Source of the DNA: a virus
Virus record (IMG/VR): IMGVR_UViG_3300044732_002429
Span: 1-32,020 of that record
DNA length: 32,020 bases
Strand: one strand, 5' to 3'
In this document: one piece after another, positions 2,898-30,873 of the stretch
Layout of the letters: every line of letters starts with the position of its first letter
Position numbering within the stretch: position 1 is the stretch's first letter
The notes under the pieces: generated by a model
What the model was told of the DNA's origin: nothing
The model's database searches: none
The model's input: the letters and a program-made list of their open reading frames with translations, nothing else
Made by a program: the position numbers and the translations under genes

Positions 2898-3349
2898 GTC
2901 TGCTCTCCGCAAATACAGCTATTATCGGCCTCTCCTGGTCCTGGATAGGCCGAAACACTCCCATTACATCTTCGGAAACAACCCTCCATGCTGTTTTGGA
3001 TTGTTTGGGCGTTCGAGCAGGAATGAAAAATATATCCTACCAGAATCATGAAGCAAATGATTCCAATCAATTCTTGAAAATCTGACAGTCCGGAAAAGAA
3101 ATCTTTCACAAAAGTGCTCCTTGGTTTTGGTTCAGGTTTTGTTTCAGGCGGACAATTGATTCGAAATGGGTCATTCGCAATACTTCTTTCCGTATTTTCT
3201 TTCGTATTCTCTAGCTTTTTCAAGCTGTTTTTCCATCTGTTCTTTTTGGTGAATTTTGCTAAGGCTTCGATGAATCTTCGTTGCCAAGACAACCAATTGG
3301 TATCGTCGTGCATCTCTTTTGGGGTCTCCTGTTGGTGCGCAAGTGCCAA
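2894..3349 (-). CDS. Unknown single-pass membrane protein; start uncertain
   Basis: The frame encodes up to 151 residues. The secure part is the C-terminal half: a hydrophobic span (LIGIICFMILVGYIF, about residues 94-108), followed by a Cys-rich tail with four Cys (CFRRC and CIC), consistent with a small membrane-anchored protein. Two starts are possible. TTG 3349 has GGAGGAAGG just upstream and gives 151 residues with a basic helical N-terminus and a Pro/Glu/Lys linker. GTG 3109 has AGGAG seven bases upstream and gives about 71 residues, and it would leave 3171-3380 free for a different gene. It could be a lysis-related small membrane protein or spanin-like, but nothing proves that. I cannot decide the start by eye. 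Confidence 0.55.
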   Translation of the reverse strand: MALAHQQETPKEMHDDTNWLSWQRRFIEALAKFTKKNRWKNSLKKLENTKENTERSIANDPFRINCPPETKPEPKPRSTFVKDFFSGLSDFQELIGIICFMILVGYIFHSCSNAQTIQNSMEGCFRRCNGSVSAYPGPGEADNSCICGEQT

Positions 3350-5621: not shown

Positions 5622-5786
5622 TCATCCTTTCAAAACTTTTTGCTTCGACTTTGCTACAGATTCCTTGACTTCGCTCTTGGAATATCCACATAGCGGACAA
5701 GAAACATTTCCAACGTCATTGCCGTTTGGAGTGGGAAGCTCCCATTCCGAATTGCATTGACCACACTTAATTTTCCTGAGATTCAT
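5622..5786 (-). CDS. 54-residue zinc-ribbon protein
   Basis: This small gene encodes 54 residues with two CxxC knuckles: KCGQC at residues 7-11 and CPLCGYS from residue 31, followed by a Lys/Ser/Val tail. The spacing of about 20 residues between the knuckles is that of a zinc ribbon of the rubredoxin or transcription-factor type, which would hold one zinc ion. The start ATG 5786 is well supported by GAGG seven bases before it, and the stop lies next to the start of the following gene. Proteins of this type in phages may bind nucleic acid or other proteins; the actual role is unknown. The next gene's ribosome binding site lies inside its last codons. Confidence 0.75.
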   Translation of the reverse strand: MNLRKIKCGQCNSEWELPTPNGNDVGNVSCPLCGYSKSEVKESVAKSKQKVLKG

Positions 5787-7006: not shown

Positions 7007-8038
7007 TCATCGAAAAGTTGCGTGAGGTTTGCTTTCGTGATGTCCCGAAGAAGAGGTTTTGTAAAAAACAGATCGACATTGAAGTTCATCAAGATTCTCC
7101 GCTCCGCAGTATGAGAAGCCAGACCGAATTCCGTCTTCAAGACCAGAAATGACTGCTCCTGCGCCGCCAACACCAAGAACAAAGGTCTCAACTCCCTCGA
7201 TATGTTTATGCTTCATCGAAGCTGCTCGCTTGGTGTATTCTGACGCATTTCCACGATAGCGTTTGTACGTGGCGCCCTCAAGCTCAACAAATTCTCCAAG
7301 AGCTTCGTTCGTTCCAGCCAGAAGAGATCCGATCATAACAGCAGAAGCGCCCGCCGCAAGACTCTTCACGATGTCTCCAGAGTTTTTGATTCCGCCATCG
7401 GCAATCACGGAGATGCCCGGAGAATGCTCTTGGAAGTCCAGAATCGACTGGAAGGTCGGAAGACCGCACCCTGTCTGAATACGAGTCGTACAGACGGCGC
7501 CAGAGCCTACGCCAAGCTTGAACACGGTATGCTCCGGGCTTGCGTCCAGATCTCGAAACCATTCCGACGCTTCGTCTGGATATGCGAAATTTCCGATCAT
7601 CAAAGGGTGGGTCGGAAAAGCTTTTCGAAATTGCTGTGCAACCTGATAGGTTCGAGGTTGATCTCCGTGGGCTATATCGATGCAGATGAGATTGGCGCCT
7701 GCTTCCACCAATCGCTTTGCATCGTCGAGAGCGGACTTTCCAATTCCAATCGAAGCTCCAATCAAACCTTTCGGTTTTCTGGCGCGGAATTTCCCAATTC
7801 GAATAGCTTGATCCTCGCTCATTCGATCAAGGATGGCCATTCCTCCACAAGCATTCATCACCAATGCCATCTCAAGAGAAGCGATGGTTGGCATGTTTGA
7901 AGAGATGATCGGAAGCTCCAAAGTCAATCCTGCGATCTTGGTACCCAGATCAATTCTAGATCGGCTCTTTCCTCTAAAATGATTCGGTCGTAGCAGCACA
8001 TCATCGAAGCAAAGCGCTTCTTCAATTTTCTTAATCAT
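7007..8038 (-). CDS. IMP dehydrogenase / GMP reductase family enzyme
   Basis: This TIM-barrel enzyme of 343 residues belongs to the IMPDH/GMPR family, which interconverts IMP with XMP or GMP using NAD(P). Seen in the sequence: the start [10 protein letters not shown] (about residues 7-16), the active-site loop [15 protein letters not shown] with catalytic Cys (about residue 183), [11 protein letters not shown] and [11 protein letters not shown] for phosphate binding, and the ending [18 protein letters not shown]. The CBS pair of bacterial GuaB is absent. The YCGA ending favours IMPDH, the short length favours GMP reductase; I cannot decide. ATG 8038 overlaps the upstream stop (ATGA); ATG 8059 with AGGAG four bases upstream is an equal alternative. 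It likely adjusts the guanine pool during infection. Confidence 0.85.
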
Positions 8039-8481
8039 CGGCTTACGTCCTCTGGCCATGTTACTCCTGTAATTTTTTCACCTCTCAAAAAACTTTGCTT
8101 CATGCTCTCCTTTCCAGATGAACAATCATGAGCTTGCTGCAAAGCTCTTAGAAAGTCGAAAAATTCAATTCGGTCACTATCGCTACAAAATTCCACCCAC
8201 TCTCGCAATTCGGGAATAAGCTTTCCTCGATTACTATATGCGGGATTGCTATTCCAATTTCCTGCTATATCTTGAATCAGTCCGGGATTGCCTTGCGTAC
8301 AGTTTTGTTGATTCGGCCACGGAATGAGCCAGCCGAGAGCGCAGTGGAAACCCGGCTTTCCGAGGTTCCATTGACACTCATCGCCATTTCTGGCGCACTG
8401 CTCCCAATCTTGAGAAGCCAGACCTCGAACTGATGTCTCGAACGCAAACTGTCTTGCTTCTTCTAGAGAATTGATCTTCAT
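8035..8481 (-). CDS. Unknown protein with Cys/Trp-rich CALGWLIP motif
   Basis: The 148-residue protein is unrecognised by name. It contains CQWNLGKPGFHCALGWLIP, which resembles small phage proteins where a Cys-Gly rich loop (cRY...CAIGxLIP) is followed by helices. The function of those is unknown. It has six Cys, which may form a metal site or be chance. ATG 8481 follows the upstream stop by one base, with AAAGGA five bases away. The C-terminal helices (WVEFCSDSDRIEFFDFLRAL) are amphipathic. Confidence 0.65.
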   Translation of the reverse strand: MKINSLEEARQFAFETSVRGLASQDWEQCARNGDECQWNLGKPGFHCALGWLIPWPNQQNCTQGNPGLIQDIAGNWNSNPAYSNRGKLIPELREWVEFCSDSDRIEFFDFLRALQQAHDCSSGKESMKQSFLRGEKITGVTWPEDVSR

Positions 8482-15779: not shown

Positions 15780-16316
15780 TTACTGATTCATCTGCCACAG
15801 GACGAATCTTCTGTCATCGGCCAAAATTCTTCCGCCAGAATCAGATGCAGAGCTATACATCACAGAGCCTTGGTATGTGTCGTGTTCAAGCCCTAGCGCG
15901 TGGCCAAGCTCATGAACAAGGACAACGACAGAATCCTCCGTTGGAGTTGCGACATCGATTGTAATCACAGCTTGAGTCATGTGCCAGCCATTATTTTGTC
16001 GCCAACATACTGCCTGCGTGACTCCAGTGTTCGAGATGTCTTGAATGTCGCTCTGTCTAAAATGAATTTCACCCCATATTTCATTACGTGGAAGATAAAC
16101 AAAAGCATTTTGGCCAAGGGTTGAATTCCAAACTGCGATTGCGTCAATGAGAGCTATTTCATCCTCTTCGTCGATTGAATTTTCGCTTGTGACGACTAGA
16201 GGGAAATCTTCCGGACCCCATCGAACAACATCCTCGCCTTCGTAAAAAACTCCATTTGTATGCCAAGTCGAAGAGCATGATGCGACAAAAAGAAGAACGG
16301 AGAGGTATTTTTTCAT
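15780..16316 (-). CDS. Predicted lipoprotein zinc metalloprotease (metzincin, matrixin-like)
   Basis: The 178-residue protein starts with a signal peptide ending in a lipobox (VASC, Cys14), so it should be exported and lipid-anchored. Residues 135-146 are HELGHALGLEHD, the metzincin zinc motif HExxHxxGxxHD with three His ligands and catalytic Glu136. The Met-turn is SVMYSS (Met153), followed by a typical ADDRR helix start. It therefore looks like an active peptidase of the matrixin (M10) type, acting outside the cytoplasmic membrane. A phage might use it to modify the host surface, enter or leave the cell, or exclude other phages; the target is unknown. The gene sits just before dnaE and its start codon lies in a hairpin loop (16296-16347). 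The neighbours are cytoplasmic proteins, so it looks like a moron. Confidence 0.9.
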   Translation of the reverse strand: MKKYLSVLLFVASCSSTWHTNGVFYEGEDVVRWGPEDFPLVVTSENSIDEEDEIALIDAIAVWNSTLGQNAFVYLPRNEIWGEIHFRQSDIQDISNTGVTQAVCWRQNNGWHMTQAVITIDVATPTEDSVVVLVHELGHALGLEHDTYQGSVMYSSASDSGGRILADDRRFVLWQMNQ

Positions 16317-16347
16317 TGGATTTTCCCAAGATAAATACCTCTCCGTT
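16296..16347 (-). promoter_or_regulatory. Perfect 15-bp hairpin with the metalloprotease start codon in its loop
   Basis: Positions 16296-16310 and 16333-16347 are exact inverted complements (15 bp, with no mismatch), separated by a 22-base loop. On the minus strand the upstream arm is in the 5' leader and the downstream arm encodes residues 3-7 of the metalloprotease. The loop contains a GGGA site and the ATG at 16316. An RNA hairpin of this strength could control access of ribosomes, either presenting the start in the loop or blocking the 5' arm. It is not followed by a T-run, so a terminator is unlikely. Confidence 0.75.
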
Positions 16348-16362
16348 TCAACTATGGCTAAT

Positions 16363-17427
16363 TTACGGCTTCCTCAAACCCAAAAGTATCCTATTCGCAT
16401 TATCCTGGCACTCTTTCTCGAAGCTTTCAGGATCTTCGGACCTCATGCAGCGCAGCGGAGAAGCTGCCGCTGAGATTGAATAGTTCAGTCCTCCATTTTC
16501 GTCAATTTCTTCTTTTGTCTGTTCCAATGCAGCCTCGATACGCCTTTGTTTCCAGGCTTCTCTTTGAGCTTTGATAAGATTGAGATGATCTTCTACGATT
16601 TCGTCAAAAAGCGCCTTCTCTTCTTCGCGAGTCATCGATGGCCTGCGCATCGAGACCTTTGGAAACAACTCTTTTCGGCTCTCGTCAATGACGATTCCCT
16701 CATCTTTAAGAGCCTGAGAAGCCAGAGTTGCATGCTTCTCTTTTTCTCGATCTGTGAGCGGAGAAAGCAATAGAGCCTCGTGAAGATATTTGCGAGCAAG
16801 TTCCTCTTGCCAGTTAGCAAAAGAGGAGGGATCCGACTTCCAATTATCATCGAGAAGCGCTTTTCTCAACTGAATCAGTTCATCGTGTCTTCTCCGAGAA
16901 TCGGGAGTTCCGAGCTTTCTCGGCAAAGCCCTCTCGATCGATCGAAGGATTTCATGAAACCTTCTGCCAGCTTCCAATTCTGGAGTTCCTGGCAAGTCCG
17001 AGCGAGGAGTCACAGTCTCAAATTTCCCATCGCGAGTCAAAATTCTGATACTCTCTGGCGGATTCGAAAGTTTTAAAATTTCTTTGTCGATCGCTTCTTT
17101 GATTTGATCAGCCATGTTTGAAGAAGCTTCGTCTTCTACCTCTTCCGCATAGCTCTTCTTCGGTTCGTCCGCCAAAACAAGTGCAGCCTCTAGAGCATTG
17201 ATTTCGTCTTGAACGTAGAAAGCCGCCTTCTTCAAATCCTGAATGGCTGCTCGAATCTCCGAACCAGGATATTCATCCTCGACCTTTCTTCCTGCACGAG
17301 AAATGTACTTGACTGCATTTCCAAGAGCGAAGTTGAGTTCCCAATCTCGAATCACGTGAATTGGCTCAAACTTCCTTCCTTGAACATAATGATTTGGTTT
17401 GTTGATCTTGTCTTCTTTTTCTGTCAT
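16363..17427 (-). CDS. DUF3310-domain protein with long helical C-terminus
   Basis: Residues 6-75 form a DUF3310 domain (INKPNHYVQGRKFEPIHVI, then FALGNAVKYISRAGRK, then EIRAAIQDLKKAAFYV). This domain is widespread in phages and described as a SaV-like or nucleotide-kinase-associated protein, but its biochemical role is not settled. The rest (about 100-354) is a charged, mainly helical extension not typical of DUF3310 proteins, which are usually only about 80-130 residues. The extension has Arg/Glu helices and no motif I know. ATG 17427 overlaps the upstream stop as ATGA. It is likely linked to phage nucleotide metabolism. Confidence 0.75.
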   Translation of the reverse strand: MTEKEDKINKPNHYVQGRKFEPIHVIRDWELNFALGNAVKYISRAGRKVEDEYPGSEIRAAIQDLKKAAFYVQDEINALEAALVLADEPKKSYAEEVEDEASSNMADQIKEAIDKEILKLSNPPESIRILTRDGKFETVTPRSDLPGTPELEAGRRFHEILRSIERALPRKLGTPDSRRRHDELIQLRKALLDDNWKSDPSSFANWQEELARKYLHEALLLSPLTDREKEKHATLASQALKDEGIVIDESRKELFPKVSMRRPSMTREEEKALFDEIVEDHLNLIKAQREAWKQRRIEAALEQTKEEIDENGGLNYSISAAASPLRCMRSEDPESFEKECQDNANRILLGLRKP

Positions 17428-18603: not shown

Positions 18604-19251
18604 TTACTGAACTGCTCCAAACTCATAAATCTGCTCTACCCAATGTTCAATCTGCTTGAAATTGTTTGTTCGAAGCTTGAAGTCTTTTGCGTCCTCGTTT
18701 TGAGGCGTGGCGACAAGAATTGCATTAGCTGGACCAAATCGCTTTCCGTTCCACTCTGCTTGATTGTAATTGTTCCAATCTCGGCAGTTGCGAGTATGAT
18801 CATCGATAAGAGTTAGTCCGGAAACATATCGCTTATCAACGGCAAAAATCACGTCAGTCCGTGCAGCATCAAAATGCTTTGCAAGCCATTTTCGACGTTC
18901 GTATGGCCATGTCTTGTTGTCTTTTGGGGGAGATGTGACAAACAAAATTTCATGACCAGCACTCCGAAGATTCTCCACAAATTCTTGAGAACCAGGAATG
19001 ACGGGAAGTTGCGAACAAAATCCTTGCATCTTCCAAGCCTTCTCAAGCCCAGATTCGGTCCAAAACGGATACGTTCGAGTATCGGCAGTTACTTCTTCGA
19101 ACAGAATCTTCTTCGAAACCTTCCCAGAGTTGTTTGCGTACTCAATGCAAAACTTCATGAAATCACAAAGAACTCCGTCACAATCAATCAAAACTTTCTT
19201 CTTGTTAATCTTTACTCTTCTTTCTTGTTGTTCGAAAATGGAGGGCGCCAA
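18604..19251 (-). CDS. HAD-family 5'(3')-deoxyribonucleotidase-like protein; start uncertain
   Basis: The sequence KKKVLIDCDGVLCDFM is HAD motif I (DxDGVL) as in NT5C-type deoxyribonucleotidases. LFVTSPPK supplies motif II and LTLIDDHTRNC motif III/IV, so it should remove phosphate from deoxynucleoside monophosphates or similar, close to the reductase genes. The start is odd. The frame contains no ATG or GTG before motif I. TTG 19251 gives 215 residues but overlaps the 41-codon frame by 40 bases and has no SD. ATT 19209 would give N-K-K-K-V-L-I-D-C after Met, the usual start of this family, with GAAGAG just upstream. A short TTG right before motif I would remove the first strand. Confidence 0.8.
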   Translation of the reverse strand: MAPSIFEQQERRVKINKKKVLIDCDGVLCDFMKFCIEYANNSGKVSKKILFEEVTADTRTYPFWTESGLEKAWKMQGFCSQLPVIPGSQEFVENLRSAGHEILFVTSPPKDNKTWPYERRKWLAKHFDAARTDVIFAVDKRYVSGLTLIDDHTRNCRDWNNYNQAEWNGKRFGPANAILVATPQNEDAKDFKLRTNNFKQIEHWVEQIYEFGAVQ

Positions 19252-19337
19252 TCACCAAGAGACTTCTTGATATAAATATTGCGCAAGCCTTCTCGCAGTT
19301 CGAGCTTAGCAGCATACGGCAACGACGCAACGATCAA
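19212..19337 (-). CDS. 41-codon orphan frame after the HNH gene (possible remnant)
   Basis: Between the HNH gene and the deoxyribonucleotidase gene an open frame from TTG 19337 (overlapping the HNH stop as TTGA) ends at TAA 19212. It encodes 41 residues (LPYAAKLELREGLRNIYIKK, then SLGDWRPPFSNNKKEE) with a protein-like composition, unlike random sequence. The frame has no ATG and no good SD, and upstream it is blocked by a TGA inside the HNH gene. It may be a small gene translated by coupling, or the 3' end of a gene whose start was lost when the HNH gene inserted. No family recognised. Confidence 0.45.
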   Translation of the reverse strand: MIVASLPYAAKLELREGLRNIYIKKSLGDWRPPFSNNKKEE

Positions 19338-20152
19338 AGCGACATATGGTCATGAATTTTCTTGATTTGACAAACAAACTCTTCAAGACTTGATGCAAGT
19401 TTCATTTTATTGCAAATATAACAACATGGGACCAAATTCTCTTTATCGTGAGGCAATTTACTGTCTATCCTATCTAACCCGTTGTATACAAAATATGCAT
19501 CTGGATTCTTTTGGTGTCCACTGTATTCTCTCTTCGATGATAAAACCTTTTTTTCACCATTGGTTTTGTATACTAAGTGAGTCTTGTTCAGACGGGATGC
19601 GCCACAATAAAAACAATTTTTTTGTGACAAAATTAAAAAATCCTCAAAAGACAAATTTCCATCCTTGTAAGATTGTCTGTAAACAGATCTTGCTGCATAT
19701 CGTATTGTGTCCAATTCTGTTAAATTTTTTGACTTTTCTGTGTTTATGGTAATTGCATTCGGCAAACAACCACAAGACTTTGTGTGACCATTTTTCACAC
19801 TGGAGGCGAGTATAATTTTTTCTTTCCCGCAATCACACAAACATAACCACATTGGGCTGTTGTGTTTGTTTTGTTTTTCGAAACGCAAAAAAGTCAAACA
19901 ATTATACTTGTCTCCGCTCTTGAATACAGAACCTTTTTTTTTATTAAGCTCCATTCGATGAATGGCTGCACCACAATGTTTTTGAGTACCAGACTTAAAT
20001 AAACTAAATCTGATAATCTTGGATGCTCCACAAGAACAAGAAACTAAGCACATTTTCTGTCTGTGTTTGTTCTTTTCGGTGAACTGCACTATCGTCAACT
20101 GATTACTTTGTTTTCCAATAAAATCGGCTTCGATAAAATCTTTACCACTCAT
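19334..20152 (-). CDS. HNH homing-type endonuclease
   Basis: The 272-residue protein has two N-terminal repeats with Cys knuckles (CLVSCSCGASKIIRFSL with KHCG, residues 35-61; WLCLCDCGKEKIILAS with KSCGC, 103-129), which probably bind DNA through zinc. The C-terminal half has an HNH nuclease: CFYCG, then NGLDRIDSKLPHDKENLVPC and CCYICNKMK. Such genes spread by cutting unoccupied alleles and often sit beside or in ribonucleotide reductase genes. It begins one base before the nrdA stop ends, using a GAGGG site inside the last nrdA codons. By eye it is richer in A and T than its neighbours, consistent with recent arrival. Confidence 0.9.
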   Translation of the reverse strand: MSGKDFIEADFIGKQSNQLTIVQFTEKNKHRQKMCLVSCSCGASKIIRFSLFKSGTQKHCGAAIHRMELNKKKGSVFKSGDKYNCLTFLRFEKQNKHNSPMWLCLCDCGKEKIILASSVKNGHTKSCGCLPNAITINTEKSKNLTELDTIRYAARSVYRQSYKDGNLSFEDFLILSQKNCFYCGASRLNKTHLVYKTNGEKKVLSSKREYSGHQKNPDAYFVYNGLDRIDSKLPHDKENLVPCCYICNKMKLASSLEEFVCQIKKIHDHMSL

Positions 20153-21907
20153 TCAGCCCTCACACAAAGCACAATCTTCGGGAGGCTTTGGAGCTTTCGA
20201 CTCAATGCTCTCGCGTTTATACTCCTTTGTTCCAGAATCTTTCAAAGGAGAATTGCTATGAGTGTAATACAAAGACTTGATTCCAAGCTTGTGTGCTTCT
20301 ACATGAATCTTGTGAAGCTTCTTTTGATCTACATCTGGAAAGAAGAAGAGGTTCAAGGACTGACCCTGGTCAATAAACTTCTGTCTGGCGGCAGCCAGAC
20401 GTACCAAAGCCATTTGATCAATTTCTCTCGCTGTCAAGAAAATTTTCTTTTGTTCTTCTGTCAAGAAATTGAGATGTTGTACGCTTCCGTCTTGCAGGTT
20501 GATCGACTTCCAAGTCTTGGACGTATTCTCTCCAAGAGTTTCGAGAAGCTCTTCGAGAAGCTTGTTTTTGATTTGGAAAGTTCCCTTCGCTGTTCCTTTT
20601 GAGATAAGATTTGCTGTGATTGGTTCAATGCCGCTCGACATTCCGCCAGAGATGATAGAATTTGATGCAGTTGGAGCGATAGCAAATAGATGCGTGTGAC
20701 GCCTTCCGTGACCTTTGCACCATTCTGGTTCGCCAAAAAGATCCGCAAGAGTCTTTGTGGCTTGTTCACCTTTTTCGTGGATTCCCTTGAAAATCTTCGA
20801 ATTGAGAATGTGGGCTTCCATCGAATCGAAAGCCAAACCTTTTTGCTGCAACAATGTGTGAAAACCCAAAACGCCAAGACCAATTGCTCGACTCTTGATT
20901 GCAAAACGTGCAGAATTTTCGAAACCTGGAATGTCTTTTGCTTTTTGAATAAACTCTTCAATGACTCCATCGAGAAAGAGAATTGAGGTTTGTACGAGAT
21001 TGGTATCTTTCCATTCATCGTATCTCGCAAGATTCAAGGAACTCAAACAACAAACAAAACTGTGGAGAAAATCAGTGAACAACATGATTTCTGTGCAGAT
21101 GTTCGAAGCCTGAACAAGAAGACCAAGATCTTTGTAGCACTGAGGATTTGCGTTGTTTACGTTGTCCGTAAAGAACATGTACGGCTCGCCAACCTCAAGA
21201 CGAGTTTTTAGAACCTTCTGCCAACGTCGACGAGCTTCTTCGTCTCCATCCTTGACTTTTTTCATGAAAGAATCAGAAATACAAACTCCATGATGAAGAT
21301 TCAAACATTGGCTATTCGGATCTCCGACTGGTTTGCGCATTTGCAGAAACTCATCAAAGTCTCCGTGTTCGATATCAAGATAAGCAGCCGCAGCACCACG
21401 ACGAACTCCTCCCTGAGAAACGCCAACCGCCGTCGAGTCCAATATCTTCAAGAATGAAAGAGTGCCAGACGAAGTTCCATTTTGTGAAATTTTTGAGCCT
21501 CTTGGACGAACTGCGTTCCAGTGCGTTCCAACACCTCCGCCGTTTTTGCTCAACATAGCAACTTCGTGCATGCTCTTCATTATCCCGTCAACAGAATCAG
21601 GAATTGCTACAGAAAAGCAGCTAATTGGCAAGCCTCTTGTTGTGCCAACATTTGAAAGAATGGGAGACGCAGGACAAAGCCAATTCTTCCACATTAAACT
21701 AAAAAATTCTTCCGAAATAGAAATGTCATAACCCTTTCCTTCTTGGGACATTTCCGCAATGCGGTGGCCGACACCGTATGCCACTCGGCGATACATTGCT
21801 TTTGGAGTCTCGCCTTCGAGGAGATATCCACCAGAAAGAGTCTTAAAAGAGTCTTCCGTCATCCAGTCGGGAGCTTCTCCGGCAGTCTTCAATTCTTCTA
21901 GATTCAT
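20153..21907 (-). CDS. nrdA: Class I ribonucleoside-diphosphate reductase, alpha subunit
   Basis: The 584-residue catalytic subunit makes deoxynucleotides from ribonucleoside diphosphates. Seen: the redox Cys97 (ISCFS), the NICTE active site (N269, C271, E273), the second redox Cys at 286/287 (VCCLSS), the radical-transfer Tyr pair Y547-Y548 (SLYYTHSN), and the terminal redox pair CALC (579-582). It is shorter than E. coli NrdA (761) because the N-terminal ATP-cone is absent, so it should lack overall activity inhibition by dATP. The segment after NICTE reads MLFTDFLHS, where homologues usually have a Pro-Thr motif; this may affect substrate binding. ATG 21907 overlaps the nrdB stop (ATGA). 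Confidence 0.95.
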   Translation of the reverse strand: MNLEELKTAGEAPDWMTEDSFKTLSGGYLLEGETPKAMYRRVAYGVGHRIAEMSQEGKGYDISISEEFFSLMWKNWLCPASPILSNVGTTRGLPISCFSVAIPDSVDGIMKSMHEVAMLSKNGGGVGTHWNAVRPRGSKISQNGTSSGTLSFLKILDSTAVGVSQGGVRRGAAAAYLDIEHGDFDEFLQMRKPVGDPNSQCLNLHHGVCISDSFMKKVKDGDEEARRRWQKVLKTRLEVGEPYMFFTDNVNNANPQCYKDLGLLVQASNICTEIMLFTDFLHSFVCCLSSLNLARYDEWKDTNLVQTSILFLDGVIEEFIQKAKDIPGFENSARFAIKSRAIGLGVLGFHTLLQQKGLAFDSMEAHILNSKIFKGIHEKGEQATKTLADLFGEPEWCKGHGRRHTHLFAIAPTASNSIISGGMSSGIEPITANLISKGTAKGTFQIKNKLLEELLETLGENTSKTWKSINLQDGSVQHLNFLTEEQKKIFLTAREIDQMALVRLAAARQKFIDQGQSLNLFFFPDVDQKKLHKIHVEAHKLGIKSLYYTHSNSPLKDSGTKEYKRESIESKAPKPPEDCALCEG

Positions 21908-22893
21908 CCTTCGTCCTCCTCATCAAACATTCCATCATCAAAAGTTACTACACCTTTGCCATAAGCTGACACTCTCTGGCTGAAGAAATCAACACTTGTG
22001 GCGCCAGAAGAAAGAGGCTCAAACCACGCCTCAAATTTCTCCAAAGAGTCTTTGTCTAAAGTTTTCCAGTTCATCTTCAATCCAAGTTCTCCGAGCTTCA
22101 TGTTTGCTTGGCTTCGAATGAAGTTCTTCAAATCTTTCGGATCTAATCCCTGAATTGAGCCGCCCGCAAACACCTTGTCGATGAACGCATCCTCGATCGC
22201 TACGGTGTCTCTGGCCGCCTGATATATCTTCTTCTTCAATTCGTCTGTCCAAATTTCGGGATTCTCTTTGATGAAAGTTCTAAACAACCAACATCCAGCA
22301 GAAGAATGAAGCGTCTCATCTCTGATCGACCAGCTAATAATTCTTCCAACGCCTTTGAGTTTATTGAACCTTTCGAAATTTAGTAGCACAGCAAAATTTG
22401 CAAAAAGAGAAACACCCTCAGTGAAAGCAGAGAAAACTGCAAGCGAGAGGGCGATTTCTTCTTTTGTCGCTCCGGTTTCTTTGTTAAATTCTACCAAGCG
22501 ATCAATTTTCGCCTTTGCTGTTGGCTCGGCAAGAAAGGCGTCATAATCCTCGATTCCCAAAGTTTCATTCAGATGAGAGTACGCATTAGTATGAATCGAT
22601 TCGAAAGCGCCAAATGTAATAGCCATCATCTGAATTTCAGGATGCCGAAACCAAGAGGCCACTTTCTGGCTCCAATACTCATTTACTTGAATCTCCGATT
22701 GGATAAATCCTTTCAAGATTCCTCCAACGACAACTTTTTCATTGTCAGTCAAAGACATTTTCCAATCTTGGACATCTCCATTCATTGGAACTTCAGTGAC
22801 CAGCCAGTGTGCTTGCTGTTGCTTCAACCAAAAATCAAAGCACTCGGGATACATGTACGGTTTGTAAACTTGTCTTGGAACCAGTAGTGTCAT
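21904..22893 (-). CDS. nrdB: Class I ribonucleoside-diphosphate reductase, beta subunit
   Basis: The 329-residue radical-generating subunit keeps the diiron and radical residues: a first-helix Glu (IQSEIQVNEYW, E67), E98 and H101 (FESIH), the radical Tyr105 (HTNAY), E159 (FTEGV), and E193 with H196 (RDETLH). It would form the tyrosyl radical that NrdA uses. The acidic C-terminal end (DDGMFDEEDEG) is the usual docking tail for NrdA. ATG 22893 has AAGG seven bases before it and lies 32 bases after the MazG-like gene. The order nrdB-nrdA is reversed relative to E. coli but common in phages. Confidence 0.95.
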   Translation of the reverse strand: MTLLVPRQVYKPYMYPECFDFWLKQQQAHWLVTEVPMNGDVQDWKMSLTDNEKVVVGGILKGFIQSEIQVNEYWSQKVASWFRHPEIQMMAITFGAFESIHTNAYSHLNETLGIEDYDAFLAEPTAKAKIDRLVEFNKETGATKEEIALSLAVFSAFTEGVSLFANFAVLLNFERFNKLKGVGRIISWSIRDETLHSSAGCWLFRTFIKENPEIWTDELKKKIYQAARDTVAIEDAFIDKVFAGGSIQGLDPKDLKNFIRSQANMKLGELGLKMNWKTLDKDSLEKFEAWFEPLSSGATSVDFFSQRVSAYGKGVVTFDDGMFDEEDEG

Positions 22894-22925
22894 AGGGGAG
22901 CCTTAGATAGAAATCAAGTCCAGAT

Positions 22926-23312
22926 TCAAATCACTTTTCCGCCGTGACGATATGGACGAGTTTTGTTATACTCGTTCTTGAGATTAATCACGGCAGCAAG
23001 ATCAAGTCCCTCGCCTCCGCAAAGATCGAAAATGCGAATGATGGCATCTGCAATCTCCACAATGGCGCCTTCCGGCTTTCCGTTCTTGAGATAGACCTGA
23101 TCAACGAGATGTCCAGCACGAAGCTCTTCTACGGCCTCCGAGATCTCACAATGAACAAGAAGCAGACGCTCGAAAGTACCAACCTTTTCGACGTCGTACC
23201 AACCCTTGCTTCGAGACACTTCGTAACAATCCGTACACCATTCGGAGACAGACTTGCTGTTTGAGTAAGCTGACAGTTCTTCCTTCGACAAATAATTCAC
23301 ATCTTCCTTCAT
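22926..23312 (-). CDS. MazG-like NTP pyrophosphohydrolase
   Basis: From ATG 23312 the protein is 128 residues. LLLVHCEISEAVEELRAG and VEIADAIIRIFDLCGG carry the Glu/Asp residues of the all-alpha MazG-like NTP pyrophosphohydrolases, ending NKTRPYRHGGKVI as many phage and bacterial members do. These enzymes cut NTP or dNTP to NMP and pyrophosphate and may clean modified nucleotides or lower alarmone levels. The start overlaps the upstream stop as ATGA with GGAGG six bases before, clearly preferred to the frame's opening at 23414. It lies upstream of the reductase genes. Confidence 0.85.
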   Translation of the reverse strand: MKEDVNYLSKEELSAYSNSKSVSEWCTDCYEVSRSKGWYDVEKVGTFERLLLVHCEISEAVEELRAGHLVDQVYLKNGKPEGAIVEIADAIIRIFDLCGGEGLDLAAVINLKNEYNKTRPYRHGGKVI

Positions 23313-23692
23313 TGAGCACCTCCAAGTGCCGCCCACATTGCTCGGGCCACAGCTACAAACACATGATCCTTTGCCTTTTGCGCTTCTGGTAATTCTGAAT
23401 ATGGAACGAAGCATGGATGTGTTTTTGCTTCAGGATCTTTTGTGGGTCCATATCGCCATCCATCAGCAGCCTTTACCGCAAGCCATGATTCATGAGATTG
23501 CTCCGGAGTTGCTCCATTGATGGCGCCCTCAACTCCAATTCGAGCACTGCCTCTTTGCCATCCTGGCGCAGAATCCCAAGGCAATTGAGACTCATCTCCA
23601 AGTGCGAGACAATAGGCGCGGTTCGCCTCATGCGTTGCACGAGCGCAAGCATCAATCTTCTCTTCTTTCGACAAACTATTAACTTCCTTCAT
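23309..23692 (-). CDS. RyR-domain protein
   Basis: The 127-residue protein is a single RyR domain, first described in ryanodine receptors: ARATHEANRAYCLALGD, then PGWQRGSARIGVEGAIN, then SHESWLAVKAADGWRYGP and HPCFVPYSELPEAQKAKD. Phage and bacterial members are thought to bind small ligands, but their function is not established. ATG 23692 overlaps the helicase stop as ATGA; the frame opens at a TTG at 23701. It lies between the helicase and the MazG-like gene, so a link to nucleotide-derived signals is possible but is inference. Confidence 0.85.
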   Translation of the reverse strand: MKEVNSLSKEEKIDACARATHEANRAYCLALGDESQLPWDSAPGWQRGSARIGVEGAINGATPEQSHESWLAVKAADGWRYGPTKDPEAKTHPCFVPYSELPEAQKAKDHVFVAVARAMWAALGGAQ

Positions 23693-25062
23693 GATACCCA
23701 ACCTTTCTTTTTCGAGAACGCTTTCATTTTATCAAGATCCGTTTGAGGTTCTCCCTCAATCTTCTTTTCAATCTCATCAGTAAGATCGAAAAGTTCAACT
23801 TGCGTATTTGCCGTGTTTAGCGAGTACGCAAAAATTTGCCCGTCTCTACCTTGGCGATTCTTGGCGACATACATCTTTCCAACGCCAGCAGCCTTCTGCT
23901 CCATGTTTCGGGCGATCGTAATGACGCAATCCGAAGTCTGGATCTTTGTGAAATCCTCAGAAACTTGGTCGGGCGTAATCAAGTCTGCCTGATAGCCGCT
24001 GCGGTTCGTCTGCGTCGCTGTAACGACCGGAATGTCCAAGACTTGAGCAAGAGCTTTCATGTCTTGCCAAATCGATTCTAGGCCATGCCTGCGCTCTTCA
24101 CGAGGGCCGCCTTGTTCTCCCACTCGAAGAAGATCTCCGTAATCGATGATGACGAGATCTGCAATGATTCCTTTCAGTCGAAGTCTAGAAAGGTGACTCT
24201 TGATTGTCTGAACCGATGCTGACTTCATCGGATACTCTTTGATAATCAAATGAGCATCTGCCGGAAGCTTCTTGGCCAAATTTTCTAGAACAATTTTCCG
24301 TTCAAGACAGATGTTATTGATTTCGATTCCGGTAATAGAAGCATCGTATTTTCGGGCAACCTCAAGCTCGTCAAGCTCAAGAGTGTAGTGCACCACAGTC
24401 TTTCCAGCAAGCAAAGCACCAACGCCAGAACAAACGAGCATCGAACTCTTTCCGGCTCCGGCTGCGCCAATCCACGTAATGAGACGTTTCGCTCCATATC
24501 CTCCATGAAGAATATCGTCAAGATACTTCCAACCAGTAGAAACCTTGTTCTCTTTCACGTCTAGAAATCGCTTGTTGTCATCATCGTTGTAATCGTATCC
24601 AATATTTGCTGAGGTTCCTTTCGAAACCGCACGCTGGAAGATGCTGACGATGTCTTCAAGATTCTGACCACTTTCGATCCTGGGAAGAATTTCTTCACTG
24701 AGGGCTCGGCCAACAGTCTGCAAGCGAAAGAATTCCAACGCCTTATCTTTGACATACTCAATGTCGTTGTTGAGAGGATTCTGCCTCATTCGCATAATGT
24801 ACGAGAGACACTTCTTTGACAAGATTGGATCATCAACATCCTTTTTGCAGATATCTTCCAAAAGATTGATACTTGGAAACACTTTGTATGCAAAGTAGTG
24901 CTGCATCAAAATCTCTGCAACCATTTGGGTATGAACAGAGTCAAATAATTCAGGCTTCAAAACCTCACAAATCTGCTCTGCCCAAATTGTATCGAGCAGC
25001 ATTGCTTGCGGAATCTTCTCTTCAAATCCAGGATCGAACGTATTCTTCTTTTCTTCGGTCAT
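23689..25062 (-). CDS. DnaB/T4 gp41-like replicative helicase
   Basis: The 457-residue protein has an N-terminal helical domain (about 1-150) and a C-terminal RecA-like motor: Walker A GAAGAGKS (199-206), Walker B with VIIDYGD (304-310), and the motif-3-like segment IPVVTATQTNR. The DVSTGW-like segment before Walker A (STGWKYLDDILHGGYG) is typical of DnaB. It would unwind DNA at the fork as a hexamer. No primase domain is fused to it. ATG 25062 overlaps the stop of the exonuclease gene (ATGA) with AAAGGA nine bases before. Nothing in the sequence tells whether it works with the family A or the family C polymerase. Confidence 0.9.
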   Translation of the reverse strand: MTEEKKNTFDPGFEEKIPQAMLLDTIWAEQICEVLKPELFDSVHTQMVAEILMQHYFAYKVFPSINLLEDICKKDVDDPILSKKCLSYIMRMRQNPLNNDIEYVKDKALEFFRLQTVGRALSEEILPRIESGQNLEDIVSIFQRAVSKGTSANIGYDYNDDDNKRFLDVKENKVSTGWKYLDDILHGGYGAKRLITWIGAAGAGKSSMLVCSGVGALLAGKTVVHYTLELDELEVARKYDASITGIEINNICLERKIVLENLAKKLPADAHLIIKEYPMKSASVQTIKSHLSRLRLKGIIADLVIIDYGDLLRVGEQGGPREERRHGLESIWQDMKALAQVLDIPVVTATQTNRSGYQADLITPDQVSEDFTKIQTSDCVITIARNMEQKAAGVGKMYVAKNRQGRDGQIFAYSLNTANTQVELFDLTDEIEKKIEGEPQTDLDKMKAFSKKKGWVS

Positions 25063-26033
25063 TTATTTTTTCCTTTTGTGAGAAATCTCAAGTTGTCAAA
25101 TGATGGTAGATTTAAATTCAAACAGTTATTCGTTGAAGCTTTCCAGAATTCCAGTTTTTTGAAGTGAGTGGACTCCGTCATCGCTCCATCAAGAACCTCT
25201 CTAGAATTTGAGGTAAGCATTGGAGAAGATAGATTCATCAGTTCCCAATTTCTTTTTATTTTTGAAAGATTCTCTTTGATCTTTAGAAGGTTTTTCGTAA
25301 GAGTGTCTGGCTTTTTTGAGTTGACTTCAACACTATCGCAAACTGTTTCGACATCTTCTAAGTCAAATTTTATATCGGACTCAAGAGAGAATATCTTCAA
25401 GAGAGTCTTTGGTCCAAGCCCTTTTACGCCATCAATATTATCAGAAACATCACCAACAATAGCACGATACAAAAGCCAATTGTTGGGATGAATTCCAAAC
25501 TCTTCTATGACTTCGTTTCGGCCAAAAATCTTTTTTGACATTGGATTGTACACCGAAACGTCAGAATCGATTAGCTGATAGAAGTCTTTGTCGCAAGAAA
25601 CAATGTAGACGTGTCCGAGGTTGTTTTCTTTCCGATACTTTGCAGTGTATGAAATTCCGTCGTCTGCCTCGAAATTATTGCACACAGTCATTGTTACTGG
25701 CAACAAGTCAATCATTTCTCGAAGAATGAAGAACTGATATTCTTTGTTCTTTTCTGCTTTGTCCGAGTCGGAAAACTTGTACAGACGTCCAACGACCTGC
25801 TTCGCTTTCCGTCCCTCTTTATATTCAGAGAATATTGCTTTTCTCTGATTTGAATTTCCTTTGCCGTCGAAGAAAATCATGATTTTGTCTGGCGACAAAG
25901 TTCTGTTCAAGTTGGATAAAGCATTCAAAAAACCTTTGACCATCCCTACCGGAACTCCATTAGAGTCAACGGAAGGATTGGCGGTAAAATGAATGATGGC
26001 CAAGTTGGTTCCATCAATCAGCAGAGTTGTCAT
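25059..26033 (-). CDS. 5'-3' exonuclease / T4 RNase H-like FEN nuclease
   Basis: The 324-residue protein has the FEN/PIN-like nuclease motifs: an N-terminal Asp (LLIDGTNLA, D7), a second in IFFDG (D56), EADD (122-125), SCDKDF (146-151) and GDVSDNI followed by the helix-hairpin-helix GVKGLGPKT (194-210). These bind the metals and DNA. Such enzymes remove RNA primers and 5' flaps during lagging-strand maturation, as T4 RNase H does. ATG 26033 overlaps the upstream stop as ATGA with AAAGG six bases before. It is likely translated with the endonuclease gene before it. Confidence 0.9.
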   Translation of the reverse strand: MTTLLIDGTNLAIIHFTANPSVDSNGVPVGMVKGFLNALSNLNRTLSPDKIMIFFDGKGNSNQRKAIFSEYKEGRKAKQVVGRLYKFSDSDKAEKNKEYQFFILREMIDLLPVTMTVCNNFEADDGISYTAKYRKENNLGHVYIVSCDKDFYQLIDSDVSVYNPMSKKIFGRNEVIEEFGIHPNNWLLYRAIVGDVSDNIDGVKGLGPKTLLKIFSLESDIKFDLEDVETVCDSVEVNSKKPDTLTKNLLKIKENLSKIKRNWELMNLSSPMLTSNSREVLDGAMTESTHFKKLEFWKASTNNCLNLNLPSFDNLRFLTKGKNK

Positions 26034-26641
26034 TCTTTACCTTTCGTCCAATCGTGGCTAGACAAATCGAGAAGTTCTTCAGATTCAAAATCTGTCGATT
26101 CGAGAACTTCTTTCAATTTTTGTCTAACGATTTCTGGACTTTTCTTTATGTCCAGCTCCCAAATTTCCAACCTATGAACCTTAGCTTTTTTCAGAACCTC
26201 TTTTGACAGACGATCTTTTTCTAGATTCTTTTTCTGAATGTTATTCTTGGGGGTCTCGTAGACTCTAGAGTTGACGTGCCAATAATCTCCACAAACCTCG
26301 ATGGCAAGATTCCTATCTTTCACAAAGAAGTCAACATTGATGTATCGAATCGCCTTCTGCTTCTTGAAGTCTACTCCGAGTTCAGTCAAGAGGTTTTCGA
26401 CGAAGACTTCGATGGATGTGTCCTTACCATCAGTTCCGGAAGCCTTTGATTTGCTTCCAAAGAATTCAATCTTCAAAGCCCGTCGCGTCTTCGTCAATTC
26501 TCCGTAGTGTCGTTGAAAGGTGCTTCCATCAACAGTGTCATTTCCGATAATTTTATTTATCAAAACTCTCTTGTCTTTGAGAATCTTCTTTTTCTCTTCG
26601 TAGAGATTGAAGTCTTTACTTTTTTCGCTTTTTTCCGACAT
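26030..26641 (-). CDS. Vsr-like endonuclease, possibly homing
   Basis: The C-terminal half has a PD-(D/E)XK fold of the Vsr/DUF559 type: INVDFFVKDRNLAIEVCGDYWH with Asp and Glu metal ligands, then a helix with basic residues and LEIWELDIKK. The N-terminal 100 residues are helical and charged. Vsr-like homing endonucleases exist in phages, so this may be a free-standing mobile gene between replication genes, but it could also be a repair or recombination nuclease. The product is 203 residues from the third of three ATGs (26641), with GGAG six bases before; the frame runs back to 26662. It overlaps the preceding gene by 26 bases. Confidence 0.75.
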   Translation of the reverse strand: MSEKSEKSKDFNLYEEKKKILKDKRVLINKIIGNDTVDGSTFQRHYGELTKTRRALKIEFFGSKSKASGTDGKDTSIEVFVENLLTELGVDFKKQKAIRYINVDFFVKDRNLAIEVCGDYWHVNSRVYETPKNNIQKKNLEKDRLSKEVLKKAKVHRLEIWELDIKKSPEIVRQKLKEVLESTDFESEELLDLSSHDWTKGKE

Positions 26642-27029
26642 CATCATCTCCAGAAGATTCAATAGTCGTTCTGTGAAAAAACAGTTTCGAATCCTTCTTT
26701 ATTTTCTTTGAGAACAAGCTTAAAATACACTCATTCAAGATAGGATTATTGAAAGCTATTTCAGATCCAGAATTTAGAACCAAAAAGCCTCTAATGTTCT
26801 TGGCGATCAATTTACCAGCAACTTCTTCAATCACTTCAAATTGACATCCAACAATTGGGCTGTTGTCTACGTCTTTGTAGTACCAAACAAGAGATCTGAG
26901 AGAATCGAAAAGATCTTTTTTTAGTTGCACACTATTAATCGTATCATCCATCAATTGACGTCTGATTAATTTGTACAGAGCACGAACCTTAAATTCATAC
27001 AGAGGAAAAACATTATCTTCTTTGGCCAC
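26616..27029 (-). CDS. Unknown 137-residue protein
   Basis: I do not recognise this protein. It has helical stretches (VRALYKLIRRQLMDD, FDSLRSLVWYYKD), a strand-rich middle (IRGFLVLNSGSEIAFNNP) and a basic C-terminus (DDDVGKKRKK). It starts with GTG 27029 behind TAGGAG, nine bases away, and overlaps the preceding gene by 17 bases and the next by 26. Location between uvsX and the FEN gene suggests a replication or recombination function, but only by neighbourhood. Confidence 0.6.
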   Translation of the reverse strand: MAKEDNVFPLYEFKVRALYKLIRRQLMDDTINSVQLKKDLFDSLRSLVWYYKDVDNSPIVGCQFEVIEEVAGKLIAKNIRGFLVLNSGSEIAFNNPILNECILSLFSKKIKKDSKLFFHRTTIESSGDDDVGKKRKK

Positions 27030-27753
27030 TTGGGAAAACTCCTACAGATCTGAGTATTCTCGGATTTCTAATCTGAGCATTGTTAAATTTTCTGTAAATG
27101 CTACGCATCCTAAAACTGTTCCCAATAAACGGTTTCAGAAAGGAATGATAGAACGCATAAGGCTCTGTTGGAATCCTGGGAATGGAAGCCATCAACTCTT
27201 TGCTTTGGTTTAGCCCCATCATCAATCGATGAAGTTCGTTTGTCTTCTGAGCCGTGACTTGATTTCTTTGAAGAATCTTGGCATCAATTTGCGTCTTGTC
27301 GTTTGGAGCAGAAGCTTGAACTTGAGTTCTACCAAATGTTGAAATCTTTCCAACCACCGAACCAAGCAATTGTTTAGCCTTCTCTTGCGGACTCTGCATG
27401 CCAAAAGTGGACTCTTGAGAAATAGGAGTCATCACAACTCGCTTTCCGTCGCGAATCAAATCGTTTGTTTCTTTGTTCAGGATATCAATCTCTTTTTTCC
27501 TGGCCTGAATCTGAGCCTCAAGCGGAGCGAATACATTTGTCGGATTTGAGTATGCTGCATAAAGAAGTTGCTGCAAATACTCCTGCTCTGGTGCAGACAA
27601 TCTGTTCATAGTAATTCCGTGAAGGAATCCAAGATAGTTGGGAGAAATAACCAATATGTCTCTTGGCATATTGAATCCTGGCTTTGCCGGATTGTTATAT
27701 CGCATCGAAATGATGTCTCCCAACTTGATCTTAGAAAAGAGATAATTGCTCAC
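27013..27753 (-). CDS. Unknown phage protein with SH3-like N-terminus
   Basis: The 246-residue protein starts with strands like a small barrel (KLGDIISMRYNNPAKPG, then RDILVISPNYLGFLHGITMN), has a helical Gln/Lys-rich middle (about 75-190), and ends PYAFYHSFLKPFIG...SIYRKFNNAQIRNPRIL. The ends resemble families I have seen in large phages, but I cannot name a function. GTG 27753 overlaps the uvsX stop (GTGA). It may be co-made with UvsX. Confidence 0.65.
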   Translation of the reverse strand: MSNYLFSKIKLGDIISMRYNNPAKPGFNMPRDILVISPNYLGFLHGITMNRLSAPEQEYLQQLLYAAYSNPTNVFAPLEAQIQARKKEIDILNKETNDLIRDGKRVVMTPISQESTFGMQSPQEKAKQLLGSVVGKISTFGRTQVQASAPNDKTQIDAKILQRNQVTAQKTNELHRLMMGLNQSKELMASIPRIPTEPYAFYHSFLKPFIGNSFRMRSIYRKFNNAQIRNPRILRSVGVFPSGQRR

Positions 27754-28850
27754 TCGTTAGATATCTCTGCGTCGGTAAATCTAGGGTCCGCAAGATCCTT
27801 TGTCATCGTTTTCTCAAAGATGTCCAGAATGGTATTTCTGAAAGCCTGGTCTTTAATGAACTGCTGTTTGAACTCAGACTTCTTTACAGCATCTTCCTTC
27901 TTTTGACCTTCAAGCTGAATCATCTTTCCCTTCGATCCTGCATTGAAGGTTGTAACTGCCTTTCGGCTTTCCAGCGTATCAATAATTGACTCGGTGTCAT
28001 CTACGCCGTGCGTAAAGTAGATCGGAAACGTTGTCTTTCCGAATGGTGGGCCGAATCGAGTCTTTTGGACTGTCACCTCGGTTTTGACTCCGATCACCTC
28101 TTCATCAATCTTCAGCTTTCCAATTGATTTAACTCGAAGTCGTACCGAGGCCAAAAATGGGATCGCATTTCCTCCAGGGGAGATGAACGGATCTTGTCCA
28201 GGCATGACCTTCATGATGTTTCTCAACTGGTTTAGGCATAGCAGACAGATATCTCGCTTTGCGGCCATAGAGAGGAACGTCGTGAGGTTCTTCGAGATAA
28301 TTCGAGGTTTCAGGCCCATGGTCGCACCTGGATCTGGATTCTCTTCTGTCAAATCAAGCTGAGAAGGTGTCGCAGCAACAGAGTCCCAAACAACAAGAAC
28401 GAAATTGTAATTCCACTCTTTCTTCTTCTTGGCTTCTTCAATCTGCTTCGAAAGATCGAACAAGAAACTGAATACTGCTTCTACAGACGGCGGTGGAGGC
28501 TGCGGGCGCCAAAATGATTCTGCGTCAACATCCAAACCAATTCGTCTTGCATAATCATCACCGAATGCACACTCCGGATCGAGATAGATGCAAAGACCTC
28601 CCATCTTCTGCGCATTTGCGCAAGCGTGTGCTGCGAGAAGAGACTTTCCAGACGCAGGCATACCCGCAATCTCGATAATCTTCCCGACTGGATATCCACC
28701 ATCTCTACGGTTGGTCATGCGATAATCTAGCGCTGTACAACCAGAAGGAATGAAAGTTGTTACATCATCAATGCTTCCATCTTCTTCGAGAAAGACATAG
28801 TCGTCTTTCAAATTCTTTTTCATGCTTTTGATCAAATCTTTTAATGCCAT
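27750..28850 (-). CDS. uvsX: UvsX/RecA-like recombinase
   Basis: From ATG 28850 (366 residues) it has Walker A GMPASGKS (63-70), a Walker B strand FVLVVWDSVAATPS and the motif CLLCLNQLRN, as in the RecA/UvsX core. The middle has loop-type segments (PDPGATMGLKPRII, ISPGGNAIPF) that fit the L1 and L2 DNA-binding loops. It would pair DNA strands in recombination-dependent replication with the SSB next to it. GGAG five bases before ATG 28850 gives a clear start; the frame extends to a TTG at 28871 in the terminator tail. The C-terminus is charged (EGQKKEDAVKKSEFKQQF). Confidence 0.9.
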   Translation of the reverse strand: MALKDLIKSMKKNLKDDYVFLEEDGSIDDVTTFIPSGCTALDYRMTNRRDGGYPVGKIIEIAGMPASGKSLLAAHACANAQKMGGLCIYLDPECAFGDDYARRIGLDVDAESFWRPQPPPPSVEAVFSFLFDLSKQIEEAKKKKEWNYNFVLVVWDSVAATPSQLDLTEENPDPGATMGLKPRIISKNLTTFLSMAAKRDICLLCLNQLRNIMKVMPGQDPFISPGGNAIPFLASVRLRVKSIGKLKIDEEVIGVKTEVTVQKTRFGPPFGKTTFPIYFTHGVDDTESIIDTLESRKAVTTFNAGSKGKMIQLEGQKKEDAVKKSEFKQQFIKDQAFRNTILDIFEKTMTKDLADPRFTDAEISNE

Positions 28851-28865
28851 TTTTTCTCCTTTATG

Positions 28866-28906
28866 AAACAAAAAGAAGACAAGTCCCTTTCGAGACCGTC
28901 TTCTTT
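28866..28906 (-). terminator. Intrinsic terminator after the ssb gene
   Basis: Positions 28872-28880 and 28898-28906 form a perfect 9-bp stem (AAAGAAGAC with its complement). Within it a second 5-bp stem (GTCTC/GGGAC, one G-T pair) closes a GAAA tetraloop. On the minus strand the stem is followed by a run of T (TTTTTGTTT), the layout of a rho-independent terminator. It begins about 20 bases after the ssb stop and ends just before the uvsX ribosome binding site. Confidence 0.75.
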
Positions 28907-28927
28907 CCTTTACTACAAATCAGCGAA

Positions 28928-29935
28928 TCAGGTCAGTGAAGACTTCGCAAGAAGCGCCTTTGCTCGCGCCTTTCTGTCCAATGGCGGAGGTGGCTCAACT
29001 GGTGGCGGAAGATCTTCTGGATCAACCTGCTCTTCTGCAATCTCTTCCTCTTCTTCGGGTTCCTCTCGCTTCGAAGATCCCTTCTTGAAGCTCGTTCCTT
29101 CCGAATCCTTTGATTCTCGGACTGGAGCCGTCTTGTTTTGATAAGCAGCCTTCTTTTCGAGAGCCTTTACCCAAAGCTTAAAAGCCTCTTGAACTTGCTC
29201 TGAAGTCTTCTTCTCGTATCCCTCGATACCACCAACATCAATGTTTGGAAGAGTCTTCTCAATTTCTTCCCACGTTTCTTCGGGCTTTTCGGAAATGGGC
29301 TTAGACTTGCGACCAAGCTCAATCAAACTCAACCCATGCGTTGCCTTGTTCATTGCAGCGGAACGTGCGGCATCGTAAGCCTCGAAAGTGATGTCGATAT
29401 CTAGACCAGAGACGGGATGCAAGAAATCTTGCGTCTCTTCGTCGGCCAACCAATCAACCAACTTTTGATGGTTCTTTGAAAGCTTGTCGTCAGACGAAGA
29501 GATAGAGAAAAACTTGATTCCCTCTGCTTCACGTCCACGAACAATGCCAGGAACCATGATTCTTCGCTGTGGAAGAAATTGTCGCCAATGTGCTAGTCCG
29601 GCCTTGTTTCCCTTATTTTCCTTCATCTGTTCCCAGACGAAATCACAAAAGGCACACTTTTCCTTTCGATTTGAATTCTTGGCTGGACAATACACAGTAC
29701 CAACGCCAGAAATTCCCATGTGATAATACCGATCCAGGAAAGGATCAGAAGTGTAATCTTCGTTGTGAATGTACGGAAATGCTCGGAAATGATACTTTCC
29801 AGGTCCATCAACCTTGAACAAAGGATTATCCTTGATGTCCTTCTTCCAGCTTGAACCACTCTTCTCGCCAGCCTTAGCCTTCGCTTCCTCCATCTTCTGC
29901 TTGAACTTATTCGAATCGAACTTCATCTTAATCAT
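28928..29935 (-). CDS. T4 gp32-like zinc ssDNA-binding protein
   Basis: The 335-residue protein has a basic N-terminal arm (KFDSNKFKQKMEEAKAKAG), a core with GPGKYHFRAFPY, and the gp32-type zinc site H72, C83, C94 and C97 (YYH, VYC, KCAFC). An acidic stretch near the end (REEPEEEEEIAEEQ) matches the partner-binding tail of gp32, but here it is followed by a Pro-rich linker and a basic end (DRKARAKALLAKSSLT), so the acidic region is internal. It coats single-stranded DNA during replication and recombination. ATG 29935 has GGAG ten bases before. A terminator follows the gene, consistent with high separate expression. Confidence 0.85.
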   Translation of the reverse strand: MIKMKFDSNKFKQKMEEAKAKAGEKSGSSWKKDIKDNPLFKVDGPGKYHFRAFPYIHNEDYTSDPFLDRYYHMGISGVGTVYCPAKNSNRKEKCAFCDFVWEQMKENKGNKAGLAHWRQFLPQRRIMVPGIVRGREAEGIKFFSISSSDDKLSKNHQKLVDWLADEETQDFLHPVSGLDIDITFEAYDAARSAAMNKATHGLSLIELGRKSKPISEKPEETWEEIEKTLPNIDVGGIEGYEKKTSEQVQEAFKLWVKALEKKAAYQNKTAPVRESKDSEGTSFKKGSSKREEPEEEEEIAEEQVDPEDLPPPVEPPPPLDRKARAKALLAKSSLT

Positions 29936-29976
29936 GCGTTGTTTTCTCCATTTTTCTCAATGCCTCGATTTGAGGC
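29930..29976 (-). promoter_or_regulatory. Possible structured leader of the ssb gene
   Basis: In the 51-base gap before the ssb gene, GCCTC (29976-29972 on the minus strand) and GAGGC (29966-29962) form a 5-bp stem with a 5-base loop AAATC. Four loop bases (AATC) can pair with GATT at the start codon (29933-29930), which would make a pseudoknot over the ribosome binding site. T4 gp32 represses its own translation through an mRNA pseudoknot, so the same may hold here. The pairing is short and could be chance. Confidence 0.3.
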
Positions 29977-29986
29977 GGTTTGTTCT

Positions 29987-30844: not shown

Positions 30845-30873
30845 AGCTCTTTCCTCTCGTTAAATAGCAAAAT

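Follow-up and report, generated by a model that had tools for sequence, protein, structure and literature searches.

The locus described here raises the question of why the start codon of a phage protease gene lies within a perfect hairpin, and whether this hairpin serves to hold back translation, to end or process the upstream message, or nothing at all. We analyzed a window of 32,020 nt, which is the phage contig of IMG/VR record IMGVR_UViG_3300044732_002429 and is read as coming from a tailed phage. The minus strand carries all of the window genes judged real, such as those for DNA polymerase III alpha, ribonucleotide reductase subunits and a RecA-like protein. An IMP dehydrogenase-like gene was also observed at 7007-8059; it belongs to a PHROG dehydrogenase family (E 1.2e-76), and the name IMP dehydrogenase was given from the sequence. 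Another IMG/VR record, 3300044640_001162 (G001, also L085), overlaps window positions 19002-32020 over 13,019 bp with 4 mismatches (99.97% identity) and represents the same phage population. G001 continues past the window end with contractile-tail-like genes, and the hairpin site lies outside it.

The protease gene and the hairpin around its start

The features of the locus are as follows, in the order in which they are transcribed except for the start codon and the protease gene, which overlap the hairpin.

16363..17427, minus strand: upstream co-directional gene with a DUF3310 domain; its TAA stop codon lies 15 nt ahead of the hairpin
16333..16347, minus strand: 5' arm of the hairpin, in the mRNA AACGGAGAGGUAUUU; lies in the 46-nt intergenic gap and includes a Shine-Dalgarno-like GGAGAGG
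16311..16332, minus strand: apical region of 22 nt, with an inner stem of UCUUGG with CCAA and GA
16296..16310, minus strand: 3' arm of the hairpin, in the mRNA AAAUACCUCUCCGUU; encodes K Y L S V of the signal peptide (codons 3-7)
16287..16295, minus strand: U-rich stretch CUUCUUUUU, immediately 3' of the stem; a terminator-like feature
16314..16316, minus strand: apical ATG at which the matrixin gene starts, lacking a normally spaced Shine-Dalgarno sequence
15780..16316, minus strand: matrixin-type metalloprotease gene of 178 aa, with HELGHALGLEH and a lipobox-like VASC at residues 11-14

The matrixin gene is placed between the DUF3310 gene, from which the 46-nt gap separates it, and the DNA polymerase gene. 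Its product matches PF00413 (E 8.7e-10, 39.1 bits vs a cut-off of 24) and has the hallmarks of the matrixins (M10), with the zinc motif HExxHxxGxxH present as HELGHALGLEH at residues 135-145 and the Met-turn at M153, all of which are invariant in the alignment. A short hydrophobic N-terminus that ends in the lipobox-like VASC makes the protein a putative membrane-anchored lipoprotein.

In the mRNA, the hairpin and its flank read, 5' to 3', AACGGAGAGGUAUUU-AUCUUGGGAAAAUCCAAUGAAA-AAAUACCUCUCCGUU-CUUCUUUUUG, the 5' arm corresponding to 16347-16333 and the 3' arm to 16310-16296. The first-pass annotation had described a perfect hairpin around the matrixin start, with the ATG in its loop, and had considered a chance origin unlikely. 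A repeat search recovered the same arms of 15 nt, 100% complementary and 22 nt apart, and the start codon at 16316 on the minus strand is indeed inside the 22-nt apical region. An exhaustive scan of the 32-kb window, with loops of 3-60 nt allowed, found that the longest other perfect stems were of 10 bp. Sixty simulated windows (first-order Markov sequences of the window composition) contained, on average, 0.12 stems of 12 bp, 0.03 of 13 bp and 0.03 of 14 bp each, and not a single stem of 15 bp. The hairpin is real and far beyond chance.

A stretch of 63 nt was predicted to fold with a free energy of -27.3 kcal/mol (z = -6.4 vs dinucleotide shuffles), an exceptional predicted strength. In this prediction, an inner stem pairs 16331-16326 with 16319-16316 and 16314-16313, which leaves two bases of the ATG, A and G, paired. 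The stem stays folded at 60-75 C in silico, and an RNA thermometer was thereby excluded. The coding sequence also appears to accommodate the pairing: with the protein fixed and phage codon usage applied, pairing at 15 of 15 positions survived in 0.14% of synonymous recodings, and the 3' arm carries less common codons where pairing requires them, namely CTC (14% of Leu) and TCC (10% of Ser). The arm codons thus look selected for pairing, a result that, as a small and post hoc test, is consistent with such selection but is no proof of it.

Access to the start codon

The effect of the structure on initiation was estimated from the opening cost, defined as the free energy required to unfold a 30-nt stretch around the start codon. 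At 22.6 kcal/mol, the matrixin start ranked first among 39 window starts, the other 38 having a mean of 6.6 (sd 3.1), and it was again first of 47 with a wider 5' context and with the sibling contig G001 included. The cost depended strongly on the 5' end of the RNA, being ~22-23 kcal/mol for an end at 16346 or further upstream, 11.5 at 16340, 5.0 at 16337 and ~1 at 16325. An RNA that starts inside the 5' arm is accordingly predicted to be open, because the cost has fallen to ~5 kcal/mol by 16337.

RNA structure is described in the review PMC3014915 as inhibiting initiation at T4 genes 49, e (lysozyme) and soc, ~100-fold in the case of e. As a positive control, the same opening cost was calculated for 104 T4 genes, and 49 ranked first, e third and soc tenth; with wider 5' context, 49 and e came fourth and sixth, and soc fell to 28. 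Because motB.2 and modB, for which the available text of PMC3014915 reports no such control, also rank high in T4, a high rank alone is a lead and no proof.

The first-pass annotation had suggested that translation of the lipoprotein is repressed or timed. This part of its interpretation is the best-supported reading of the hairpin, by virtue of the top-ranking opening cost, the T4 control and the predicted dependence on the 5' end, and we give about even credence to the proposal that the hairpin is an inhibitory start-region structure that works like that of T4 gene e, whose expression T4 delays on this principle. All window genes judged real are on the minus strand, and read-through RNA is therefore expected. 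The 15-bp stem and the inner stem would bury the start codon and its surroundings in mRNA that enters from the gene upstream, and the matrixin lipoprotein would barely be made while the remaining operon is expressed. RNAs with a 5' end inside the hairpin (~16337 onward) would lose the 5' arm and become translatable; such shorter RNA might come from a promoter inside the hairpin or from processing. We infer folding in vivo, repression, and relief via the shorter RNA from the model, whereas the presence of the hairpin and its position are matters of observation. We do not file the structure as a proven gene e-type hairpin, given that no late promoter able to relieve it came to light and that read-through RNA is expected rather than observed.

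A sigma-70 scan gave no promoter in or just upstream of the hairpin, and the T4-type late promoter TATAAATA was absent from the ~50 kb of gene strand searched; the promoter type of this phage may differ. A motif, GTATTTA, is present in the leader hairpins of both the matrixin gene and the tail sheath-like gene described below, and once elsewhere on the ~50-kb gene strand; as a shared promoter motif it was rejected as too weak.

Most window genes have a normally spaced Shine-Dalgarno sequence, and the GGAGAGG in the 5' arm ends 21 nt ahead of the AUG, which is too distant to serve the matrixin start. Even unblocked matrixin RNA may therefore be translated poorly, since the gene is without a normally spaced Shine-Dalgarno sequence. 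Upstream of the matrixin ATG there is no in-frame ATG, GTG or TTG that could act as an alternative start; an out-of-frame TTG was considered and discarded, as it opens just 56 codons.

A second buried start was found in the same phage population. In G001, a 13-bp stem with one G-U pair and a 12-nt loop (3232-3270) lies ahead of a putative tail sheath-like gene (G001 3277), a name that rests on length and N-terminal sequence. The Shine-Dalgarno sequence of this gene, AAGGAG, is in the 3' strand of the stem, and the opening cost of its start is 14.9, rank 3 of 47. A more extended and rather doubtful proposal is that the signal-peptide codons 3-7 also act as the strand that blocks their own start codon, that the exported matrixin would stay silent on read-through mRNA and be made only from a late, near-leaderless RNA begun inside the hairpin, and that the sheath gene might be blocked in a similar way.

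Possible termination, processing or ligand binding

The U-rich stretch after the stem and the 15-nt distance to the upstream stop codon raise the alternative that the hairpin serves the upstream transcription unit as an intrinsic terminator or attenuator and overlaps the matrixin start by coincidence, such that only a fraction of polymerases would reach the genes for the protease and the DNA polymerase. The GC-rich lower part of the stem and the U-rich tail UUCUUCUUUUUG fit this alternative, and in a terminator scan the hairpin was the most stable tract-associated hairpin on the window gene strand (-26.4 kcal/mol). The same phage population has clearer terminator-like hairpins in comparable places, namely window 28906-28872 and G001 5741-5765, where the stem likewise comes soon after a stop codon and has a U-rich stretch behind it. 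However, the d-score of the matrixin hairpin is negative, -28.0 to -5.7 depending on the stem end, compared with +15.9 and +28.1 for these two clearer terminators; the low value stems from the interruption of the U-tract and the length of the apical region. The hairpin also went unreported in a promoter/terminator scan, which allows loops of 3-8 only. Unlike the intrinsic terminators, it is sub-threshold in score, has a long structured apical region and overlaps the start of the next gene. Termination is the main rival to a translation block and, in our estimate, unlikely; a dual role, with partial termination and a translation block combined, is possible.

The hairpin at window 28872-28906 has a 9-bp outer stem, a GAAA-capped inner stem and a U-rich tail, and lies 21 nt past a stop codon and ~21 nt before the probable ATG of the RecA-like gene at 28850.

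With ~20 paired bases altogether, the structure could also be a processing site for a double-strand-specific nuclease of the RNase III type, which would split the upstream and downstream messages. Similar intergenic hairpins, with outer stems of 13-14 bp and apical regions of 23-24 nt, are found in operons of two contigs, L009 and L028, but these are upstream of starts and not around them. A two-strand cut at the matrixin hairpin would, moreover, part the start codon from the coding sequence and destroy the protease message, and we regard this explanation as improbable. Both contigs come from distantly related phages. The L009 hairpin (2880-2931) is a perfect stem of 14 bp with 24 apical nt and precedes a dUTPase-like gene by 22 nt; that of L028 (6930-6978) is a perfect stem of 13 bp with 23 apical nt, also 22 nt upstream, in this case of a small ribonucleotide reductase subunit gene. 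Both gene names were taken from sequence.

The first-pass annotation had named an RNA-binding protein or RNase as examples of what might act on the hairpin. The strength and specificity of the structure would suit a switch of the matrixin gene by a ligand of its own, be it an RNA-binding protein, a small RNA or another molecule, and T4 gp43 and RegA are named in the available text of PMC3014915 as phage repressors that bind start-region RNA. Rfam and tRNA scans, on the other hand, gave no match, a direct-repeat family search showed no second copy of the arm sequence elsewhere in the window, and no candidate regulator was found. Such a ligand-operated switch appears very improbable to us.

Relatives and comparison with known systems

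No syntenic relative or orthologous locus was found in the collections searched. The viral contigs and phage records searched held no close relative of the protease, the hairpin as a DNA pattern had no match in the viral contigs, and the collections gave no relatives of the DUF3310 gene. DNA polymerase relatives were limited to one very distant viral contig and phages of <60% identity, and bacterial and archaeal genomes yielded a single weak match to the protease. Homologous matrixins were recovered by a profile search at 19 viral loci, the best of them with 38% identity. In the homologous genes at other loci (28-38% identity) this hairpin is absent and most starts are ordinary, with the starts of L113 (opening cost 21.0) and L101-L104 (14.4) structured in other ways. 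L108 and L114 share the upstream sequence of L113, yet their starts are open, and the hairpin is therefore not a feature of the matrixin family.

The lack of conservation at these loci, together with the single record of the site in the searched collections, would be expected if the inverted repeat were incidental, that is, a product of chance or of mutation (template switching) without regulatory effect. This is the reading to which we give the least weight: the chance expectation is far <1 per window, the rare codons fit the pairing, and such a stem would hinder initiation physically, whatever its origin.

Of 35 related phage records, 3 (G003, G005 and G019; loci L087-L096) had matrixins in a family search. 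Across L087-L096 and L101-L114, a 394-kb contig carried seven matrixin-type genes, of which two are neighbours, a 423-kb contig carried two and a 125-kb contig one, and many of the matrixin genes of large phages have lipoprotein-like signal sequences. The adjacent upstream gene differs between some loci, which suggests that the matrixin is an accessory gene that has been acquired repeatedly.

If the reading of a self-blocked translation start is true, timing in the style of T4 gene e extends to a very different phage that has its own DNA polymerase III alpha gene. The same timing would then reach the lipoprotein matrixins, accessory genes of several large phages with seven copies in one, and matrixin proteases would be suggested to act late or to be harmful early.

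The closest known start-region hairpins are those of T4 gene e and, grouped with it, of T4 49, soc and I-TevI. As with gene e, RNA that reads through from upstream is predicted to form a helix that hides the Shine-Dalgarno sequence and/or the start codon (here the start codon), a co-directional upstream gene lies only a short distance away (37 nt in the case of e and 46 nt in that of the matrixin gene), and loss of the 5' strand frees the start (here in silico). An early product could be unwelcome in both cases, as we infer for the matrixin protease. The two differ in that TATAAATA late promoters lie in the 5' strand of the e hairpin, whereas none was found at the matrixin hairpin, and in that the 3' strand of e holds a Shine-Dalgarno sequence ahead of the AUG, whereas in the matrixin hairpin the 3' strand codes for part of the signal peptide and the AUG is apical. 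The matrixin stem, with 15 perfect bp, is also longer than that of e, and its opening cost is higher (22.6 vs 13.7). A related system is reportedly the Aeh1 mobE hairpin of Gibb and Edgell (2009), reference 106 in the list of PMC3014915; it belongs to a homing endonuclease gene, unlike the matrixin hairpin. Taken with these systems, the matrixin hairpin is probably a further example of known control by RNA structure, and not a new kind of control.
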